From Exiguobacterium sp. s124 (GTDB lineage Bacteria; Bacillota; Bacilli; Exiguobacteriales; Exiguobacteriaceae), in NCBI RefSeq assembly GCF_018617485.1, contig NZ_JACSKH010000001.1, forward strand, positions 1,054,001 through 1,118,000: a stretch of 64,000 nucleotides of DNA, written 5' to 3'. Below, piece by piece: positions 5,621-12,840 of this stretch. A program made the position numbers and the translations under genes. Position 1 is the first letter of the stretch. Every line of letters starts with the position of its first letter. The notes below the pieces were generated by a model, which did no database searches, was not told the DNA's origin, and was given only the letters and a program-made list of their open reading frames with translations.

Positions 5621-5646
5621 GAGGGGGAGACATCCCCCTCTTTTTT
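5621..5646 (+). terminator. Intrinsic terminator after gapN
   Basis: An 8-bp G/C-rich stem (5621-5628 with 5633-5640), 4-base loop and six T residues. Confidence 0.9.
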
Positions 5647-5714
5647 GTTTGATTGAAAACGCATCTTTCAGACGGGTATAATGGAGAAAGACAGGAAGAA
5701 GGGGTGGTGATGAC

Positions 5715-6689
5715 GTGGCGGACTGGATTTCAAGCCAACTGGCAAGACTCGATATTCCGACACCGTTCGAAGTTGGAAACGTAAACGTATATATCGTTGA
5801 ACATATGAACCGCTTTTTTATGGTCGACTGTGGACCAGATACGGAAGAAGCGTGGACATCATTGAATCAGCAACTTGAAGAGCTTGAACTATCGTTGTCT
5901 GACATCGACTTTTTATTTTTGACGCATCATCATGCCGATCATGCAGGGCAGGCGTGGCGACTTCGCGATGCATCAATTCCCGTGTACGGGCACGAGAAGC
6001 TCGTTCGATACTTAGAACAGACCCCAAATTTTTTAAAGCGGGGCAACCACTTTTTACATGAACTAGTTCTCTCGTTCGGCGCACCAGAGCAACTCGTGGA
6101 AAAATTGCCAGATTATCGGGAAGCGTTACGTTGGATCGGACCGACGACCGTCACGATGACATTCAGTGACGGACAAGCCGTGACATCGGACGGGGCGTGG
6201 CAGACAATCCATTTGCCGGGACATGCGAGCGACCAGCTCGGGCTGATTGGTCCTGGCGGAGTCTTAATCGCGGGAGATCACTTGATTGATAAAGTCGAAC
6301 CGAATCCCCTCATCGAACAGCCGTATGATGATGAAGGATTTGCCTCACCGGTCATCCTCTATATCGATTCGCTCAAAAAATTGCGCGGAATCGATTTAAA
6401 ACTTGTCGTCAGTGGGCACGGTGAACCAATTCATCATCCGAACGATTTGATTGAGAGTCGAATTCGTCAGCGGTATGAGCGAAGTGAACAATTGCTTGCC
6501 GATTGGGAAGATGGTCTCAGTGTGTTTGACTGGTCGATGAAATTATATGGAAGAAAGATGCGAAGCGGTTTGCCGCTTGTCTTTAGCGAAGTGTTCGCAA
6601 GACTCAGTTTACTTGAGGAACGTGGCGACATCGAAAGGCGTCGAGATAACCAAAAATGGATTTATACAAAGAAAGAAGCGATGTCATGA
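5715..6689 (+). CDS. yqjP: Metallo-beta-lactamase-fold hydrolase, YqjP-like
   Basis: 324 residues. The metal-binding motif HHHADH is at 71-76 and further ligands appear in PGHASD and in SGHGEP. After the hydrolase domain (about 1-230) comes a C-terminal segment of about 90 residues that looks like a small winged helix, as in glyoxalase II-like and LACTB2-type hydrolases. Substrate is unknown. The next gene is a YqjQ-like SDR, the same order as yqjP-yqjQ in B. subtilis. The start is GTG at 5715 after a GGTGGTGA site. Its stop overlaps the next start by ATGA, and the run of coupled genes continues to 12464. Confidence 0.85.
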   Translation: MADWISSQLARLDIPTPFEVGNVNVYIVEHMNRFFMVDCGPDTEEAWTSLNQQLEELELSLSDIDFLFLTHHHADHAGQAWRLRDASIPVYGHEKLVRYLEQTPNFLKRGNHFLHELVLSFGAPEQLVEKLPDYREALRWIGPTTVTMTFSDGQAVTSDGAWQTIHLPGHASDQLGLIGPGGVLIAGDHLIDKVEPNPLIEQPYDDEGFASPVILYIDSLKKLRGIDLKLVVSGHGEPIHHPNDLIESRIRQRYERSEQLLADWEDGLSVFDWSMKLYGRKMRSGLPLVFSEVFARLSLLEERGDIERRRDNQKWIYTKKEAMS

Positions 6690-7429
6690 AACGGGTAGTC
6701 ATTACAGGTGCGTCAAGCGGGCTCGGTGCCGCATTGGCGCATTCTTTTTATGAACAAGGATATAACGTATTGTTGATTGGAAGAAATGAAGATCGATTAA
6801 AAACGATCGCGACGACGTGCGAGGGAGACTGGGTATGCGCAGATGTCACGAAATCGGAAGCTCTCGTTAATGAGGTAATCGAACGATTCGGAAAGTTTGA
6901 TGTATGGGTCAACAATGCAGGGATGGCCGAATTTGATTTCGTAACGGATCAATCAACCGATGTGATGGAAGAGACGATGCGTGTGAATGCGGTCGCCCCG
7001 ATGCTATTGTCGAGAGATGCTGCCAATGTGATAGAGCGTGGAGGCGTCATCGTAAATATTTGTTCGCAAGCAGGGAAAGTGCCGACACCGAAGTCCGCCG
7101 TCTACGCCGGTTCAAAGGCAGCACTCTTGCAATTCTCGAATGCATTGCGATTAGAATTGAAGCCACGTGGAATCCATGTCATGACCGTCAACCCGGGACC
7201 GATTGCCACGCCGTTCTTCGATCGAGCCGATAAGAGTGGTACATATGCCGATAGTGTTCAAGGAATTATGCTCGATCCAAAGCGATTGGCAGACGCGATT
7301 GTCAAAGGGGTTCGCAAGCGTAAACGCGAAATCAATGCCCCTTGGTGGATGAATGTTGGGGCGAATGTGTACGCAATCTGCCCAAACATGTTCGAAATGC
7401 TCGCAAAACGGGGATTTGAGAAAAAGTAA
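6686..7429 (+). CDS. yqjQ: Short-chain dehydrogenase/reductase, YqjQ-like
   Basis: 247 residues, Rossmann fold. The cofactor-binding TGASSGLG is near the N-terminus, NNAG in the middle, and the catalytic YxxxK is YAGSK with the usual upstream serine (ICSQAG). It should reduce or oxidise a small carbonyl or alcohol with NAD(P)(H); the substrate is unknown. The start at 6686 overlaps the yqjP stop as ATGA, which indicates translational coupling. A start 30 bases upstream is possible but lies inside yqjP without a ribosome site. Confidence 0.87.
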   Translation: MKRVVITGASSGLGAALAHSFYEQGYNVLLIGRNEDRLKTIATTCEGDWVCADVTKSEALVNEVIERFGKFDVWVNNAGMAEFDFVTDQSTDVMEETMRVNAVAPMLLSRDAANVIERGGVIVNICSQAGKVPTPKSAVYAGSKAALLQFSNALRLELKPRGIHVMTVNPGPIATPFFDRADKSGTYADSVQGIMLDPKRLADAIVKGVRKRKREINAPWWMNVGANVYAICPNMFEMLAKRGFEKK

Positions 7430-7443
7430 AAAGGGGGAGAACG

Positions 7444-8619
7444 ATGAAGAAATGGAGAATCTTGCTCGCAACGTGTATGCTCGCGTTTGTTGCAGCATGT
7501 GGGAATGAAGAGCAGGTCGAGTTCTCGGACTCATTTGAAGCGGCGACTGAGTCAGCAAAAGGGTCGACCGTCAATCTATATATGTGGGGTGGAGACGAGG
7601 GGATTAACAGCTACATTGATGACTACGTCGCCCCTCGCCTTGAGGAATCTTATGAGGTCGAATTGAATCGTGTCGCGATGGATACGGCCGAATTCATTCG
7701 ACAGCTCTCACTCGATCAAAAAGCGGATCGAGAGGTCGGGACGATCGATGTCGTCTGGATTAATGGCGATAATTTCCGAAATGCGAAAGAAGCTAAACTT
7801 TTGCGTGACGGATTGATGGAACGTATCCCAAACGCCAAATTGTTGAATGAGACGGCTCAACAATCAGATGCCGGCACGCCGACGGATGATTTGGAACTCG
7901 CATGGGGAAATGTACAGTTTATCTTGCATTATGACGCAGCGAAAGTCGATGATCCTCCGGAATCGTTTGAAGAATTACGTCGCTGGACCGAAGACAACCC
8001 AGGTCGTTTCACGTATCCTGAAGTCACCGATTTCACCGGCAATGCATTCGTTCGCCATCTTTTATATGAACGTTATGGAGATGAGTTAGACAAAAATGCA
8101 ACCATTGAGGAGTCGTTCTGGGATGACTTGAAAGTTTGGTCACCGAACTTATGGAAAGAAGGACAGACGTATCCGAAGACGCTCGAGCAACTCGATCAGT
8201 TATATGCATCCGGAGATGTTTGGATGACGATGGGATTCAATGAGCGCCGAGCCGAAGCGGAAGTGAAGGAAGGCATCTTCCCGAAAGAGACACGTGCCCT
8301 CGTCTTAGATCACTCGATTGCCTCGACGCACTTTTTGGCAATCCCGTTCAATGCTCCTAATCCGGATGGGGCACTCGTCCTCATTCAAGAATTATTGTCG
8401 CCTGAAGCACAGCTCGTCAAACAAGGACCTGACTATTGGGGAGATGGGACATCGCTCGATTTGACGAAGCTTGACGAGCGAGACCAGCAAGCGTTCGAAG
8501 AACTTGGAGATGGCGTGACGTATCCGGACCCTGAACAGTTACTCGAACGTTCGATTCCAGATTACGGACCAGACGTGATTGATACCGTCCGCGAGGAATG
8601 GCCACGTGTTGCGAAGTAG
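7444..8619 (+). CDS. ynjB: ABC importer substrate-binding lipoprotein, YnjB-like
   Basis: 391 residues. A lipoprotein signal with short positive start, hydrophobic core and lipobox VAAC places the lipidated cysteine at C19, so it is anchored outside the membrane. The mature part looks like an extracellular binding protein of the family that includes thiamine, iron and YnjB-type binders (WINGDN and NEVAWG-like segments). It begins 14 bases after yqjQ behind an AGGGGGAG site and is followed by two permeases and an ATPase. The transported ligand is not known for YnjBCD systems, and the assignment to YnjB rests on fold-level similarity and gene context. Confidence 0.8.
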   Translation: MKKWRILLATCMLAFVAACGNEEQVEFSDSFEAATESAKGSTVNLYMWGGDEGINSYIDDYVAPRLEESYEVELNRVAMDTAEFIRQLSLDQKADREVGTIDVVWINGDNFRNAKEAKLLRDGLMERIPNAKLLNETAQQSDAGTPTDDLELAWGNVQFILHYDAAKVDDPPESFEELRRWTEDNPGRFTYPEVTDFTGNAFVRHLLYERYGDELDKNATIEESFWDDLKVWSPNLWKEGQTYPKTLEQLDQLYASGDVWMTMGFNERRAEAEVKEGIFPKETRALVLDHSIASTHFLAIPFNAPNPDGALVLIQELLSPEAQLVKQGPDYWGDGTSLDLTKLDERDQQAFEELGDGVTYPDPEQLLERSIPDYGPDVIDTVREEWPRVAK

Positions 8620-9379
8620 TGTCGCATTAACAATTCTCGTATCCCTTTTGCCACTCGCCGCCCTCGTCTTTTTAGGGGTCGAATCAATCGGGACGGATTG
8701 GCGGGTGCTGTTGTCGGATGAGACGTGGCGAGATAGCTTATTCACGACATTTTATGTCGTCAGTGTGTCGACAGTCCTATCGCTCATCCTCGGAACGTGG
8801 TTCGCGCGAACGGTCGTTAAAAAAGGATGGCACCTCACATCGACCATACTGAAAATCCCGATGTTCGTCCCACATATCGCCGCTGCCTATTTGTTTTGGC
8901 TATTGTTTAGCGGGTCGGGCGGTATCGGGTGGATTGAAGCGAACGAGCGGAATTATGCGACGGTCATCCTCACATACATATGGAAGGAGACACCGTTTGT
9001 TTTTCTAATGATGCTCGGAACGTATGAACAGTTGAATCGGAGTTATGTAGAGACGGCGAAGACACTCCAACTCTCACCGCTTGACCAGTTTAAGCATGGA
9101 GAGCTCCCGTTTTTGATTAAACCGTTACTCGATTCGACATGGATTCTAGTCGCCTTTATCTCGTTCGCATACGAGGTGCCGGCATTACTTGGTGTGACCT
9201 ATCCGAAACTACTTGGCGTGCTCGCATACGAACGACTGTCTACAGGACTATATTTGGAGGCGACAGAGCCATACGCGGTAGCGCTCGTGTGGACATGTCT
9301 AGTCGGAATTGGCGTATTCACGACTTACTTCTTCACCGCATCCGTTCGGAGACGGATTGAACGGGGGGTGAGACGATGA
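8606..9379 (+). CDS. ABC importer permease subunit 1 (YnjC N-terminal half-like)
   Basis: 257 residues with about six membrane spans and an EAA-type cytoplasmic loop (YVETAKTLQLSPLDQF) that contacts the ATPase. The GTG at 8606 is chosen: GAGGA lies 8 bases upstream and the gene then overlaps the binding-protein stop by 14 bases. A TTG at 8579 would make the overlap 41 bases. It ends in an ATGA overlap with the second permease. In E. coli YnjC both permease halves are one polypeptide; here they are separate genes. Confidence 0.85.
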   Translation: MLRSSVALTILVSLLPLAALVFLGVESIGTDWRVLLSDETWRDSLFTTFYVVSVSTVLSLILGTWFARTVVKKGWHLTSTILKIPMFVPHIAAAYLFWLLFSGSGGIGWIEANERNYATVILTYIWKETPFVFLMMLGTYEQLNRSYVETAKTLQLSPLDQFKHGELPFLIKPLLDSTWILVAFISFAYEVPALLGVTYPKLLGVLAYERLSTGLYLEATEPYAVALVWTCLVGIGVFTTYFFTASVRRRIERGVRR

Positions 9380-10083
9380 TTCGTCAAGTGCTCATCATCT
9401 CACTGGTCTTAATCCCATTCGTCAGTCTGTTTTTAGCGATTCCGGCGATCGAATTTGAAAACAGAGAAGCTATTTTTCATTCGATTGGACTAATCGTCCT
9501 ATTATCCGCGATCAACGTGTGGCTCGCGACGGCATTTGCCTGGTGGCTCTTATGGACAGAATCGAAATGGCGGTACATTTTGGAATGGCTTGTATTTTTA
9601 CCGTTGTTCATTCCGATGCTCGCTACATTATTTGGTCTATATCTCATCTTGGCAGAAGCTGGGCTGATTGGAACGTATATCGGCGTCTCGCTCGGCTTGC
9701 TCGTCGTGACGTTACCTTATTCGATTCGTCTTGCCTATAACGGAATGGCCGTCATCGGTCGTCCACTCTTAGAACAGGCACGATTATTGCCGATGAGACG
9801 ACGCTTCGTTTACGTGTTGTTTCCGCTCTTCTCTCGAACAATGAGAACAATCGCCCTGTTCACGACCGTCATTTTGCTAAGCCAATTTGCGCTCATCCAG
9901 CTGATTGGCGCTGGGTTGATTCCGACGGTGACGACAGAACTATATCAATCTTATGCCGGAAACAATCTGAGCCTCGCGCTCTCGAACACATGGATGCTCA
10001 TCTTTTTCCCCGTCTTGATCTACTTCCTGCTCTCAGGATGGAGTCGGTGGATGGTGCGCATGTTGAAAGGACGTCTGCAATGA
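9376..10083 (+). CDS. ABC importer permease subunit 2 (YnjC C-terminal half-like)
   Basis: 235 residues, about six membrane spans. The EAA-like loop is LLEQARLLPMRRR. The ATG at 9376 overlaps the previous stop and its own stop overlaps the ATPase start, both as ATGA. It should pair with the first permease to form the membrane channel. The ligand is unknown. Confidence 0.85.
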   Translation: MIRQVLIISLVLIPFVSLFLAIPAIEFENREAIFHSIGLIVLLSAINVWLATAFAWWLLWTESKWRYILEWLVFLPLFIPMLATLFGLYLILAEAGLIGTYIGVSLGLLVVTLPYSIRLAYNGMAVIGRPLLEQARLLPMRRRFVYVLFPLFSRTMRTIALFTTVILLSQFALIQLIGAGLIPTVTTELYQSYAGNNLSLALSNTWMLIFFPVLIYFLLSGWSRWMVRMLKGRLQ

Positions 10084-10958
10084 GTTTGAATGTAAAAGCG
10101 ATACGGAAACAATTTGGAACAAGACAAATACTAAATAGTGTCGATTTTGAGGTTCAGCCTCATGATATTCATGCGATTGTCGGGGTGAGTGGCTCAGGCA
10201 AGTCGACGATTTTACGAATTATCGCAGGGTTAGAGACGACTGATGGGGGAGACGTATTGTGGAATAATAAATCTTTGCTTAATATCCCGGCACACAAGCG
10301 ACGCGTGACGATGCTATCGCAGTCTGCTTTGTTGTTTCCTCATCTGACGGTAGGAGAAAATGTCACGCTCGCGACACGTAGCCGTTCACGTAAACAAGCG
10401 GAAGAGTGGTTACAAGTCGTTCGCCTTGGTGACCGTTACGATGCCGAGATACACGAACTGTCTGGTGGCGAGCAGCAACGCGTCAGTCTCGCGCGAGCGC
10501 TAGCGGCAGAACCAGAACTTCTTTTACTGGATGAACCGTTCACAAACTTAGACCCAAAATTAAAAGTCGACCTGCAGCGCTTTATTCGTGATTTAGTGAA
10601 AGAACTCAAACTCACAGCGATTCTTGTCACCCATGACCGGGAAGAGGCGATGCTCATGGCAGACCGAGTGACGTTACTCGAATCAGGCGAAGTGACGAGG
10701 ACAGGAACAGTCGAGCAATTATACGACACCGCACCTGGCTTCGGAGATTTTGTGATGCTTGAGGGCGAACTGCGTCCGTTGGCTGAAGTCGAAGTATCTG
10801 AAACGGCCGGTGAACCGGTGCAACTGATGAAAAAAATTTATCGGTTCGGTCAGTGCTTCGGCGAATATCATTTTGAGGATGGACGGTCGGTCATGTTATC
10901 GACGGAAGAATCGTTCCAAATCGGAATGATGTATCGAATCAAACGAAAGGAGGGATAA
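10080..10958 (+). CDS. ynjD: ABC importer ATP-binding subunit, YnjD-like
   Basis: 292 residues. Walker A is GVSGSGKST (about 35-43), the signature LSGGEQQRVSLARAL, Walker B LLLLDEPF and switch histidine ILVTHD. About 80 residues follow the nucleotide-binding domain, so there is a short regulatory tail. The class is that of spermidine/iron/thiamine-type importers. The ATG at 10080 overlaps the permease stop as ATGA; an in-frame start at 9990 lies deep in the permease gene and is rejected. The next gene starts one base after the stop. Confidence 0.9.
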   Translation: MSLNVKAIRKQFGTRQILNSVDFEVQPHDIHAIVGVSGSGKSTILRIIAGLETTDGGDVLWNNKSLLNIPAHKRRVTMLSQSALLFPHLTVGENVTLATRSRSRKQAEEWLQVVRLGDRYDAEIHELSGGEQQRVSLARALAAEPELLLLDEPFTNLDPKLKVDLQRFIRDLVKELKLTAILVTHDREEAMLMADRVTLLESGEVTRTGTVEQLYDTAPGFGDFVMLEGELRPLAEVEVSETAGEPVQLMKKIYRFGQCFGEYHFEDGRSVMLSTEESFQIGMMYRIKRKEG

Positions 10959-10959
10959 T

Positions 10960-11541
10960 ATGCTCGATACGTACGGAAGTCGTTACGTACAACCTGTCAT
11001 AGAACGAGGCGCGGATCGACTGCTCAAGTGGAACTTCACACCGAATGAAGTGACGATCCTTGGTGGAATAATAGGAGTCTCAACAGGAATCTTTATTTAT
11101 AATGACATGCACTGGACTGCCGTCATCTTATTGTGGCTCTCTGGTTTGTTTGATGTATTAGACGGGACGATGGCCCGAAAATCTAAAACGAGTGGTTTTG
11201 GAACGGTACTCGACCTCGTGTTAGACCGGTTTGTCGAACTATCGGTCGTGATTGCCCTCGCACTTCGTTACCCGGAATATATGCCAATCTTTCTAATCTT
11301 GATTGCCTCGTTCGTCATTGCGATGACACTATTTTTAGCTGTCGGGGCAAGTAGTTCAAGGAAATCGGAAAAGACATTTTATTATCAACCAGGAATCATC
11401 GAACGAACAGAATGTTTCATCTTATTCACATTGATGATTCTCTTCCCGAACTGGGTTGGTGGAATCGCACTCATCTTTTTGTTGCTTGAAGTGATGACGA
11501 TTACACAACGTTTCATTGAGGCGCGGAGGATTTTGCGATGA
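10960..11541 (+). CDS. ynjF: CDP-alcohol phosphatidyltransferase family membrane enzyme, YnjF-like
   Basis: 193 residues, about six membrane spans. The family motif DxxDGxxAR...GxxxDxxxD is intact, with D65, D68, D85 and D89. Such enzymes transfer a phosphatidyl group from a CDP-linked lipid to an alcohol. The acceptor alcohol here is unknown; this is not the cell's PgsA, which is at 35804. E. coli has a homologous gene, ynjF, in the ynjBCD neighbourhood, so the link between this transporter and a lipid enzyme is conserved. It starts one base after the ATPase stop behind GGAGGG and overlaps the following gene by 4 bases. Confidence 0.85.
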   Translation: MLDTYGSRYVQPVIERGADRLLKWNFTPNEVTILGGIIGVSTGIFIYNDMHWTAVILLWLSGLFDVLDGTMARKSKTSGFGTVLDLVLDRFVELSVVIALALRYPEYMPIFLILIASFVIAMTLFLAVGASSSRKSEKTFYYQPGIIERTECFILFTLMILFPNWVGGIALIFLLLEVMTITQRFIEARRILR

Positions 11542-12464
11542 AACCAACATTAGTGTTGGCAGGACTTGGTCACGGTCAACTTGAGATTCTTGATCGTTTA
11601 GATGAGATTCAAGAGCACTACGAAGTTCGATTCATCGGAGGAAGACAGACGGTGTATACTGGTGCGTTTCCACAAGTCATTGCGAAACTGATGCCGACCG
11701 CCACTGTGAGGCCACCTCAACTTGAACCGGTCGCAAAACGGGTCATCTCGATTGATCCTCACGAGCAGACCGTACAAACGGAAAAGGGGTCGATTCTCTA
11801 CGATCAACTCGTGCTCGCGACGGGTGCAAAAAGCAGGGGAATTGGGACACCACTTAAACCGATGACACAAGCTCTACTCGAACAGATCGATTTGAGTCAG
11901 GAAGTGATAATCGTCGGTGGGGGGAAGGCTGGGGTGGAATTGGCGTTCACTTGCGCTCGGACGAAGAACGTGACGCTATATGCAAAACGGATCTTGCCAG
12001 AGGCGCCGGCTCACACTAGAAAACAAATCGAACGTCTTTTAGTGAAGTCAGGCATCATGGTCGTGAAACAACAGATTCAAAGTGACGAATCAGAAGGACT
12101 ATTACTAGATGCGACTGGCGTTGTTCCCGTTGAATGGTGGGCTGAGTCCGGACTCGCTAAACCAGACAGGTTCATCGAGACGGATGCATATTTGCGCCAT
12201 GACCAGTTCAGAACGATTTATGTGACCGGAGACATGGCATCTGATTTGAATGGGGGTGTCGATGCTGTCAGGTCGGGGCGTTATGTCGCCAAGCGGTTAC
12301 TCGGTGAAACGACCCGACCTTTTCGGAAGCGTCAATCGATGAATATTTTATTGACGACATCAGGACATGCATTGTTGACATTCGGACGATTCACGTGGCA
12401 TGGACGACTTCCATATTATTTGAAGCGATTCATCGACTCGCGATATGTACGTCATTATAATTAG
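11538..12464 (+). CDS. FAD/NAD(P)-dependent oxidoreductase resembling the N-terminal domain of SelD fusions
   Basis: 308 residues. An N-terminal dinucleotide-binding segment (VLAGLGHGQ), a second nucleotide motif in the middle (VIIVGGGKAGVELA) and a late FAD-contact TGDMAS define a pyridine nucleotide-disulfide oxidoreductase fold similar to type II NADH dehydrogenases. The N-terminus and the C-terminal end (ALLTFGRFTWHGRLPYY) resemble the family that elsewhere is fused to selenide, water dikinase. No redox-active CxxC pair is seen. It is coupled (ATGA) to the phosphatidyltransferase gene and is the last gene of the operon. Electron donor and acceptor are unknown. Confidence 0.78.
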   Translation: MKPTLVLAGLGHGQLEILDRLDEIQEHYEVRFIGGRQTVYTGAFPQVIAKLMPTATVRPPQLEPVAKRVISIDPHEQTVQTEKGSILYDQLVLATGAKSRGIGTPLKPMTQALLEQIDLSQEVIIVGGGKAGVELAFTCARTKNVTLYAKRILPEAPAHTRKQIERLLVKSGIMVVKQQIQSDESEGLLLDATGVVPVEWWAESGLAKPDRFIETDAYLRHDQFRTIYVTGDMASDLNGGVDAVRSGRYVAKRLLGETTRPFRKRQSMNILLTTSGHALLTFGRFTWHGRLPYYLKRFIDSRYVRHYN

Positions 12465-12480
12465 TGGATGGTGAGATGTT

Positions 12481-12840
12481 TCATTCACTCGGCAAATAAC
12501 CGATCACTTCGTTTGATTCAGGATCGACGAGCACGTGTGGAATTTCAATCGTGCGCTGCGAATCAGTTGGAAATGTGATGAGCCAAGCGTGTGTTTCTTT
12601 AAATTGTGAGTCGAGTAGCTCATAACGATCATCGACCTTGATCGATTGAATCGTGGCTTGTTTCGAATCTTCATTTCCCGGCAGCCAGTCCATCTGCTCC
12701 AAAAATAAAACGGCACTTTTGATGGCGTCCGCTTCATCATCAGAATATGTAGATGACGAAGTCGATGGGTGCATACAACCGGTTAACATCAAAATGGTCA
12801 AACATAACCCTGTGAAAAAGCGAGTACTTGTCATATTCAT
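12481..12840 (-). CDS. Small lipoprotein of unknown function
   Basis: 119 residues. A clear lipoprotein signal ends in the lipobox LTGC (cysteine at 22), so the mature protein of about 98 residues is attached to the outer face of the membrane. The mature part starts Ser/Thr-rich and then forms a small domain with no motif I recognise. A GAGAGTGGTGA site precedes the ATG at 12840; a second ATG two codons in is also possible. It is convergent with the flavoprotein gene. Confidence 0.65.
   Translation of the reverse strand: MNMTSTRFFTGLCLTILMLTGCMHPSTSSSTYSDDEADAIKSAVLFLEQMDWLPGNEDSKQATIQSIKVDDRYELLDSQFKETHAWLITFPTDSQRTIEIPHVLVDPESNEVIGYLPSE

Follow-up and report, generated by a model that had tools for sequence, protein, structure and literature searches.

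An eight-gene run around a YnjBCD-type importer

The window analysed here, a stretch of 64,000 nucleotides from Exiguobacterium sp. s124, carries at positions 5715-12464 an operon in which the genes of an ATP-binding cassette (ABC) importer of the YnjBCD type stand next to the gene of a YnjF-like cytidine diphosphate (CDP)-alcohol phosphatidyltransferase. A first-pass annotation had listed eight genes there and proposed that an alcohol-type compound is taken up, oxidised or reduced, and attached to a phosphatidyl group. Profile matches and a reading of the DNA confirmed the contents and coordinates of the eight genes, which are given below with the sites in front of them.

5621..5640, + strand: terminator-like hairpin and T run behind the upstream gapN-like gene; 8 pairs, 6 of them G-C; by consensus only
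5653..5682, + strand: sigma-70-like promoter, TTGAAA-18-TATAAT, the likely operon promoter; 11 of 12 matches, top of the scan; by consensus only
5715..6689, + strand: metallo-beta-lactamase (MBL)-fold metallo-hydrolase, GTG start; PF00753 72 bits
6686..7429, + strand: short-chain dehydrogenase/reductase (SDR); PF00106 157 bits
7444..8619, + strand: YnjB-family substrate-binding lipoprotein; NF008633 377 bits, cut-off 203
8606..9379, + strand: ABC permease 1, GTG start; PF00528 44 bits
9376..10083, + strand: ABC permease 2; PF00528 23.0 bits, under the gathering score of 26.4; 27% identity to YnjC 311-509
10080..10958, + strand: ABC ATPase, YnjD-like; PF00005 123 bits; 34% identity to YnjD
10960..11541, + strand: CDP-alcohol phosphatidyltransferase, YnjF-like (CDP enzyme); PF01066 58.3 bits, gathering score 22; 31% identity to YnjF
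11538..12464, + strand: flavin adenine dinucleotide (FAD)/NAD(P) flavoprotein, a divergent relative of the SelD N-terminus; PF07992 65 bits; best NCBIfam match TIGR03169, 69.3 bits

The close packing that had been described was also found at the junctions. In order, these are an ATGA overlap, a gap of 14 bases, an overlap of 14 bases, two ATGA overlaps, a gap of 1 base and a further ATGA overlap, with ATGA overlaps making up 4 of the 7. The gene directly downstream (12481-12840, - strand) is convergent. Taken with the terminator-like and promoter-like sites upstream, this makes a single transcription unit of the eight genes likely. Across the scan, promoter-like sites numbered 7 against 9.1 expected and terminator-like sites 9 against 7.0 expected, overall not above chance. 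The window was also searched for tRNA genes and, at the gathering threshold, for RNA families, and none were found. The TIGR03169 score of the flavoprotein lies far below the cut-off of 310, and this top family match is a resemblance, not a membership.

Conservation was followed at 23 loci of the Exiguobacteriaceae, which came from 15 of 18 other genomes of the same genus, 7 of 18 genomes of the sister genus and the window. The order metallo-hydrolase, SDR, binding protein, two permeases, ATPase and CDP enzyme was kept in all 23. In the eighth place, all 16 loci of the genus had the flavoprotein and all 7 of the sister genus (L073-L079) a NUDIX gene; the NUDIX protein of L073, the one member checked, resembles isopentenyl-diphosphate isomerase with a score below the cut-off. 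Among the genomes of the family that were searched, YnjB was above its cut-off in 37 of 37 and the CDP enzyme was present in 38 of 38. The binding protein of the window is up to 91% identical to Exiguobacterium records. Pairwise comparison with eight genomes of the genus gave ratios of non-synonymous to synonymous substitution (dN/dS) of 0.01-0.19 for all eight genes in the computable pairs, with synonymous sites saturated in many; the CDP enzyme, with 0.01-0.08, and the metallo-hydrolase, with 0.03-0.09, had the lowest ratios. Since the order is kept at all 23 loci and dN/dS is low in all eight genes, the arrangement is more than chance; the operon is real and conserved.

The importer and the phosphatidyltransferase

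The co-occurrence of importer and enzyme was tested in 398 genomes of the phylum Bacillota, the same set being used for YnjB and for the CDP enzyme. At most 4 first-look candidates per genome were scored for YnjB and at most 8 for the enzyme, which was called YnjF-type at 168 bits or more, the next best match having 76 bits. A YnjF-type enzyme was found in 23 genomes and YnjB above the NF008633 cut-off in 30. Both were present in 21 genomes, against 1.7 expected (Fisher P 8e-26, uncorrected for shared descent), and these were spread over 14 family codes. The two genes lay within 3.6 kb of each other in 20 of the 21 and on different contigs in the remaining one. Only 2 of the 23 enzyme-bearing genomes had no intact importer (G296, and G119, where the binding-protein gene is in pieces). 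The enzyme is thus rarely seen without the importer while the importer also occurs without the enzyme, a pattern expected if the enzyme depends on import, and such a dependence is suggested by the co-occurrence. The claim that importer and lipid enzyme belong together was supported well outside E. coli, and the pair, which is widespread, is the heart of the operon.

The binding protein belongs to the YnjB family, the NF008633 match extending over residues 7-388, and a lipobox-like cysteine (C19) can be read from its sequence. Its predicted model (predicted local distance difference test, pLDDT, 92.6) has a fold of the MalE/UgpB/PotD class. It gave Z 26-28 against proteins that bind sugars, glycerophosphodiesters (glycerophosphocholine) or sulfoquinovosyl-glycerol, and Z 26 against one that binds polyamines; with Foldseek, iron, thiamine and polyamine binding proteins also ranked high. 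Since several classes match, the fold does not choose the ligand, and deriving the ligand from it was rejected; thiamine or polyamines may still be bound. YnjB is entered as a polyamine binding protein in the table of a review (PMC9397018). Against the PotD profile NF007048 the window protein scored 19.9 bits (cut-off 582), which places it outside that family, and its match to PDB chains of PotD is confined to a stretch of 36 positions. A Marinobacter paper terms YnjBCD uncharacterised (PMC9207381).

The YnjF-like protein is a member of the CDP-alcohol phosphatidyltransferase superfamily by its PF01066 score, its motif and its predicted fold. The motif residues D65, D68, G69, A72, R73, G81, D85 and D89 (protein numbering) are present in 41 of 41 aligned enzymes. 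The predicted model (pLDDT 87.5) was superimposed on structures of phosphatidylinositol phosphate synthase (PIPS; PDB 6wmv, 6h59 and 5d92) with Z 20.8 and 2.0 A over 180 residues at 24% identity. In the PIPS of Mycobacterium tuberculosis, mutation of R155 and R195 is described as severely impairing the enzyme, and both residues are taken as binders of the inositol phosphate (PMC4634129). In our profile alignment of the 41 enzymes, the place of R155 was Gly, Thr or Cys in every row and that of R195 always Arg, the S132 place had Gly or Ser, and Lys was absent from the K135 place. The window enzyme therefore shares the fold, the motif aspartates and the R195 equivalent with PIPS and archaetidylinositol phosphate synthase, but has no equivalent of R155 or K135. 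Its scores for both families are below the cut-off, with 88.6 of 180 bits for NF040950 (archaetidylinositol phosphate synthase, the best NCBIfam match) and 73.7 of 170 bits for NF045883 (PIPS), and it is not assigned to PIPS.

The supply of a phosphorylated acceptor was followed with the inositol-1-phosphate synthase profile PF01658. No synthase was found in the genome of the window or in 4 other Exiguobacteriaceae, and it was present in 3 of 25 searched genomes, all 25 with the CDP enzyme; among the 21 sampled enzyme-bearing genomes, 18 were without it. Because R155 is lost and the synthase is mostly absent, home-made inositol-1-phosphate appears unlikely as the acceptor, and a synthesis of phosphatidylinositol phosphate from this endogenous source was rejected. 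The constant absence of Arg at the R155 place makes a free, unphosphorylated alcohol a plausible acceptor.

Neighbourhoods in other bacteria and on plasmids

The surroundings of the binding-protein gene were then read outside the Exiguobacteriaceae. The loci on genome contigs were the best 80 of at least 590 and lean towards the Bacillales. With nine duplicates removed, 100 distinct loci were examined at a limit of 400 bits (450 would omit E. coli). Counts were made on 74 of them: 73 have flanks of 6 kb or more on both sides and E. coli K-12 has 4 kb on one, while the 26 others with shorter flanks were left out. Neighbours were assigned with profiles built here, at a limit of 80 bits for the CDP enzyme and only 45 bits for the flavoprotein.

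Within 6 kb of the binding protein, a TVP38/DedA gene was found in 60 of the 74 loci, the CDP enzyme in 55 and a MerA-like reductase in 34; a further 434 kb lying further out around the loci contained no CDP enzyme. The SelD-N-terminus-like flavoprotein was counted in 24 loci, at the low limit and with a profile made from the window's relatives. For four flavoproteins of the Bacillales, three of these 24 and one at L128 that lies 6.9 kb off, TIGR03169 was the top family at 257-284 bits, again below 310. The flavoprotein is a frequent third member beside the pair, and one of the SelD-N-terminus type recurs near importer and enzyme in further genera and also on a plasmid of enterobacteria. The other two enzymes behaved differently. 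The SDR was found in none of the 74 loci and the metallo-hydrolase in 4, all of Planococcus (L168, L170, L171, L175), where it lies about 5.6 kb off on the same strand, possibly by chance. Both are mostly local additions of the Exiguobacteriaceae, and the eight families do not occur together outside it. An oxidising or reducing step by the SDR is therefore not a general property of these systems.

The partner of the importer was found to switch. Of the 19 loci without the CDP enzyme, 10 have a kinase, and the two kinases checked belong to the aminoglycoside phosphotransferase (APH)/choline-kinase family. Kinase and CDP enzyme occurred together in none of the 74 loci; L089, which has short flanks, carries both. 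This fits the proposed alcohol acceptor, as an APH/choline-kinase-type enzyme often replaces the missing YnjF-like enzyme. A quick tree of 109 binding proteins was computed with SH-aLRT support only, dropping 8 short-flank loci without a partner, labelling nucleoside hydrolases at a low limit of 35 bits and L089 as CDP. The partner label changed 16 times on it, against a mean of 27.8 after shuffling, and the CDP label 14 times, at least 9 of these over branches with support of 95 or more. The repeated changes indicate that similar binding proteins were repeatedly coupled to different alcohol-acting enzymes.

Importers of the Clostridia type (L083, L085, L087, L090, L094, L097, L184, L194) have the APH-type kinase instead of the CDP enzyme, and glycosyltransferases of TIGR04283 and TIGR04282 or a nucleoside hydrolase frequently accompany it. 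These glycosyltransferases, the nucleoside hydrolase and TVP38 near clostridial importers prompted the idea of an arsenosugar lipid pathway, which was rejected, ArsS (TIGR04167) being above its cut-off in 0 of 32 importer-bearing genomes including that of the window. In L080 (8786-10456, genome G046), a YnjF-type enzyme, nearly whole, and after it a YnjB-type binding protein are encoded by a single open frame; it lacks the last enzyme helix and seemingly most of the signal peptide, and is counted among the 55 enzyme loci. Seen once, in a genome that is 84% complete, it is possibly a deletion or an assembly error and was rejected as proof.

Besides MerA-like reductases, the 74 loci have a YnjE-like rhodanese in 14, a dicluster protein in 10, a YedE-like protein in 8, a TusA-like protein in 7 and one LysR group in 5; reductase and rhodanese were together in none of the 100. 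These genes raise the possibility that a sulfur, selenium or metal(loid) compound is taken up and processed. Rhodanese, MerA-like reductase, SelD-N-terminus-like flavoprotein and the YedE-like and TusA-like proteins would then act on the element, and the lipid enzyme would store or detoxify it in the membrane. Two dicluster proteins were above the cut-off of NF045663, a family named for nearby selenium genes. Single members of the other groups fell below the cut-offs (YedE 99 of 350 bits, TusA-like 57 of 148, LysR 244 of 250). So did one rhodanese, both for ExtH of the selenite/tellurite operon (97 of 200) and for mercaptopyruvate sulfurtransferase (128 of 250). The selenium names at NCBI rest, however, on association, and many loci, the window included, have no rhodanese, YedE or TusA gene. 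In the genome of the window no selD was found above the cut-off, and a selenophosphate route there was rejected; two weaker matches were taken for purine-synthesis genes by their size and closeness. Given also the lack of ArsS, we consider this element-based explanation quite improbable.

The pair was found in at least Bacillota, Pseudomonadota and Fusobacteriota, often accompanied by TVP38/DedA proteins, FAD oxidoreductases or rhodanese. Divergent CDP enzymes, 22-28% identical to that of the window where aligned, lie near the importer in five spirochaete assemblies (L178, L181, L182, L195, L196). In a plasmid collection, YnjB was found in 75 records and the CDP enzyme in 15, with the window sequence as query and divergent enzymes missed. 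Of the distinct plasmid regions, 16 annotated ones were read and one further region carried no annotation. Three were picked from the CDP matches (Roseivivax, Ilyobacter, Pseudoalteromonas), Metabacillus and Cetobacterium were already known positives, and 11 were chosen blind. The CDP enzyme stood beside the importer in 10 of the 16, and in 5 of the 11 blind ones; the positive plasmids are those of Roseivivax, Ilyobacter, Pseudoalteromonas, Aliiroseovarius, Klebsiella, Metabacillus, Qingshengfaniella, Pseudooceanicola, Cetobacterium and Rhodobacteraceae SC52. It was not found in the other 6, namely two of Deinococcus and those of Paracoccus, Marinovum, Peptoclostridium and the thinly annotated Sinorhizobium meliloti.

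A nucleoside hydrolase stands beside the importer on the Paracoccus, Marinovum and Peptoclostridium plasmids and within 6 kb of it in 7 of the 74 loci. The Paracoccus (L211) and Marinovum (L214) regions also contain a sugar isomerase-like gene, an aldolase, a DhaK-type kinase and an aldehyde dehydrogenase, a set that suggests catabolism of a ligand of the nucleoside or sugar type. The importer might accordingly serve carbon salvage, with the CDP enzyme as a side use or a chance neighbour. The presence of this enzyme within 6 kb of 55 of the 74 importers and in 5 of the 11 blind plasmid regions, and the strong selection on its gene, speak against such a role, and we regard it as very improbable.

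Lipid genes were found around several of the importers. In Deinococcus taeanensis, a lysophospholipid acyltransferase gene overlaps the binding-protein gene, in Pseudoalteromonas a PF04116 hydroxylase follows the CDP enzyme, and in Roseivivax (L203) PqiA and MlaD/MCE-type lipid transport genes directly precede it. PqiA and MlaD/MCE-type genes also occur on a Rhodobacterales plasmid (L220), there on the other strand and separated from the CDP enzyme by two genes. The whole module was found on an enterobacterial plasmid island (Klebsiella, L208:4059-12713; Salmonella, L216). It comprises a TVP38/FAD-oxidoreductase fusion, a SelD-N-terminus-type flavoprotein (287 bits for TIGR03169 in Klebsiella, below the cut-off of 310), a YnjB-type binding protein, a permease, an ATPase and the CDP enzyme. 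The island also carries a carboxymuconolactone-decarboxylase-type gene, a sigma factor and DUF2282-DUF692-DoxX genes. In Salmonella it is part of an IncC plasmid and lies between transposase genes of the IS110 type and of Tn3.

In E. coli K-12 the order is ydjXYZ-ynjABCD-ynjE, with ynjF behind ynjE on the opposite strand. Identities to the window proteins are 33% for YnjB, 34% for YnjD, 31% for YnjF and 27% for the C-terminal half of YnjC (311-509), which aligns with permease 2. The parallel drawn with E. coli had been that importer and lipid enzyme are kept together; they are within 10 kb, but ynjF is not part of the ynjBCD operon, and the parallel is looser than claimed. Of the two regions, that of E. 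coli has TVP38/DedA genes, the AhpD-like YnjA, the rhodanese YnjE and one long permease, and that of the window has two permeases, metallo-hydrolase, SDR and flavoprotein, all on a single strand; the window does not have the gene set and order of the E. coli-type ynj operon. Of the 7 VTT-domain (TVP38/DedA) genes in the window's genome, none lies inside the operon.

The regulation in E. coli bears on an explanation by envelope stress without a substrate link. YnjF would then make a special phospholipid from an endogenous alcohol, TVP38/DedA proteins and flavoproteins would protect or remodel the membrane, the importer would serve a separate need that arises under the same stress, and the genes would travel together because they are co-induced. 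The genes ydjXYZ-ynjABCD are in an FNR regulon table, and ynjE is named there as directly FNR-activated (PMC3688515); ynjA and ynjB are in a BaeR regulon table with 1.6 and 1.4 fold (PMC2731931). The decarboxylase-type gene and the sigma factor between transposase genes on the plasmid island, and the position of PqiA, named for its induction by paraquat, in Roseivivax, point the same way. However, co-induction does not predict the asymmetry by which only 2 of 23 enzymes are without an importer, nor the sets of CDP enzyme, binding protein, permease and ATPase of the Rhodobacterales that have no TVP38 or flavoprotein gene in the same run. We judge this explanation unlikely.

A possible route from imported solute to phospholipid

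The reading we favour, tentatively and at slightly less than an even chance, is that YnjBCD imports a polyol-like solute which YnjF joins to a phosphatidyl group. The binding lipoprotein, the two permeases and the ATPase would take up a small solute with a hydroxyl group, probably similar to a polyol or sugar, and YnjF would use a hydroxyl of it as the acceptor for the phosphatidyl group of CDP-diacylglycerol. The product would be a phospholipid whose head group comes from outside the cell. Where present, TVP38/DedA or flippase-like proteins might distribute the lipid between the leaflets, and the FAD oxidoreductases, with the SDR and the MBL hydrolase in the Exiguobacteriaceae, might adjust or turn over the solute or the lipid. 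The reading builds on the observed operon structure, families, selection, co-occurrence with adjacency and repeated switching of partner enzymes, with the folds of YnjF and the binding protein taken from predicted models; from these we infer the direction of the pathway, the use of the imported solute as acceptor, the lipid product and the roles of all other enzymes. The lipid genes in Deinococcus taeanensis, Pseudoalteromonas and Roseivivax were counted in its favour. The first-pass interpretation is partly supported.

A stricter form, a salvage of head groups, is doubtful. Here a neutral polyol would be imported, the importer-dependent YnjF would take the free and not the phosphorylated alcohol, and the phospholipid would not be made from endogenous head groups. 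The fold of an inositol-phosphate enzyme combined with the loss of one of the two phosphate-binding arginines makes free inositol or a similar cyclitol a candidate acceptor.

Several observations weigh against the import of the acceptor for lipid synthesis. The importer was without the enzyme in 9 of the 30 importer-bearing genomes, and 9 of the 74 loci have neither CDP enzyme nor kinase. In 13 of the 55 enzyme loci (that of E. coli plus 12 from Planococcus and relatives), enzyme and importer are encoded on different strands, and ynjF of E. coli is outside the transcription unit of the importer. The conserved R195 place may leave room for a phosphorylated acceptor. Some relatives stand with a nucleoside hydrolase, two of them also with sugar-catabolism genes, and have no lipid gene, so that their solute may only be catabolised. 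On the tree the partner labels cluster, with 16 changes where shuffling gives a mean of 27.8, and plain descent accounts for part of the pairing pattern. In one Exiguobacterium genome, a TAG codon lies in the reading frame of the binding-protein gene (G012:C1:1638354-1639496). Genes related to families named for selenium metabolism at NCBI are near several clostridial importers and are not explained by an imported head group.

If an external head group is indeed attached, both the phospholipid and this kind of lipid salvage would be new. Under head-group salvage, an ABC importer would determine the lipid composition of the membrane, and the trait would have reached a transposase-flanked island on enterobacterial plasmids; the location of the pair there suggests that the trait is self-contained. 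YnjBCD and YnjF of E. coli become one testable question, namely which solute YnjB binds and whether YnjF attaches it.

A literature search, with subscription journals mostly outside its scope, found no paper on the pairing of importer and CDP enzyme, and the window operon is a variant of a widespread, uncharacterised system. Importer, CDP enzyme and FAD oxidoreductase also form one same-strand run in Marinococcus halophilus (L151), Alkalicoccus saliphilus (L133) and Pseudooceanicola algae (L218), the oxidoreductase of L151 being of the SelD-N-terminus type as in the window. Unlike the window, all three have a MerA-like reductase and lack metallo-hydrolase and SDR, and L133 and L218 have TVP38, in L218 as one fusion gene. 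The closest parallel in packing is Pseudooceanicola, where the TVP38/oxidoreductase fusion, CDP enzyme, binding protein, permease, ATPase and FAD oxidoreductase follow in a row and each gene overlaps the next by 4 bases.

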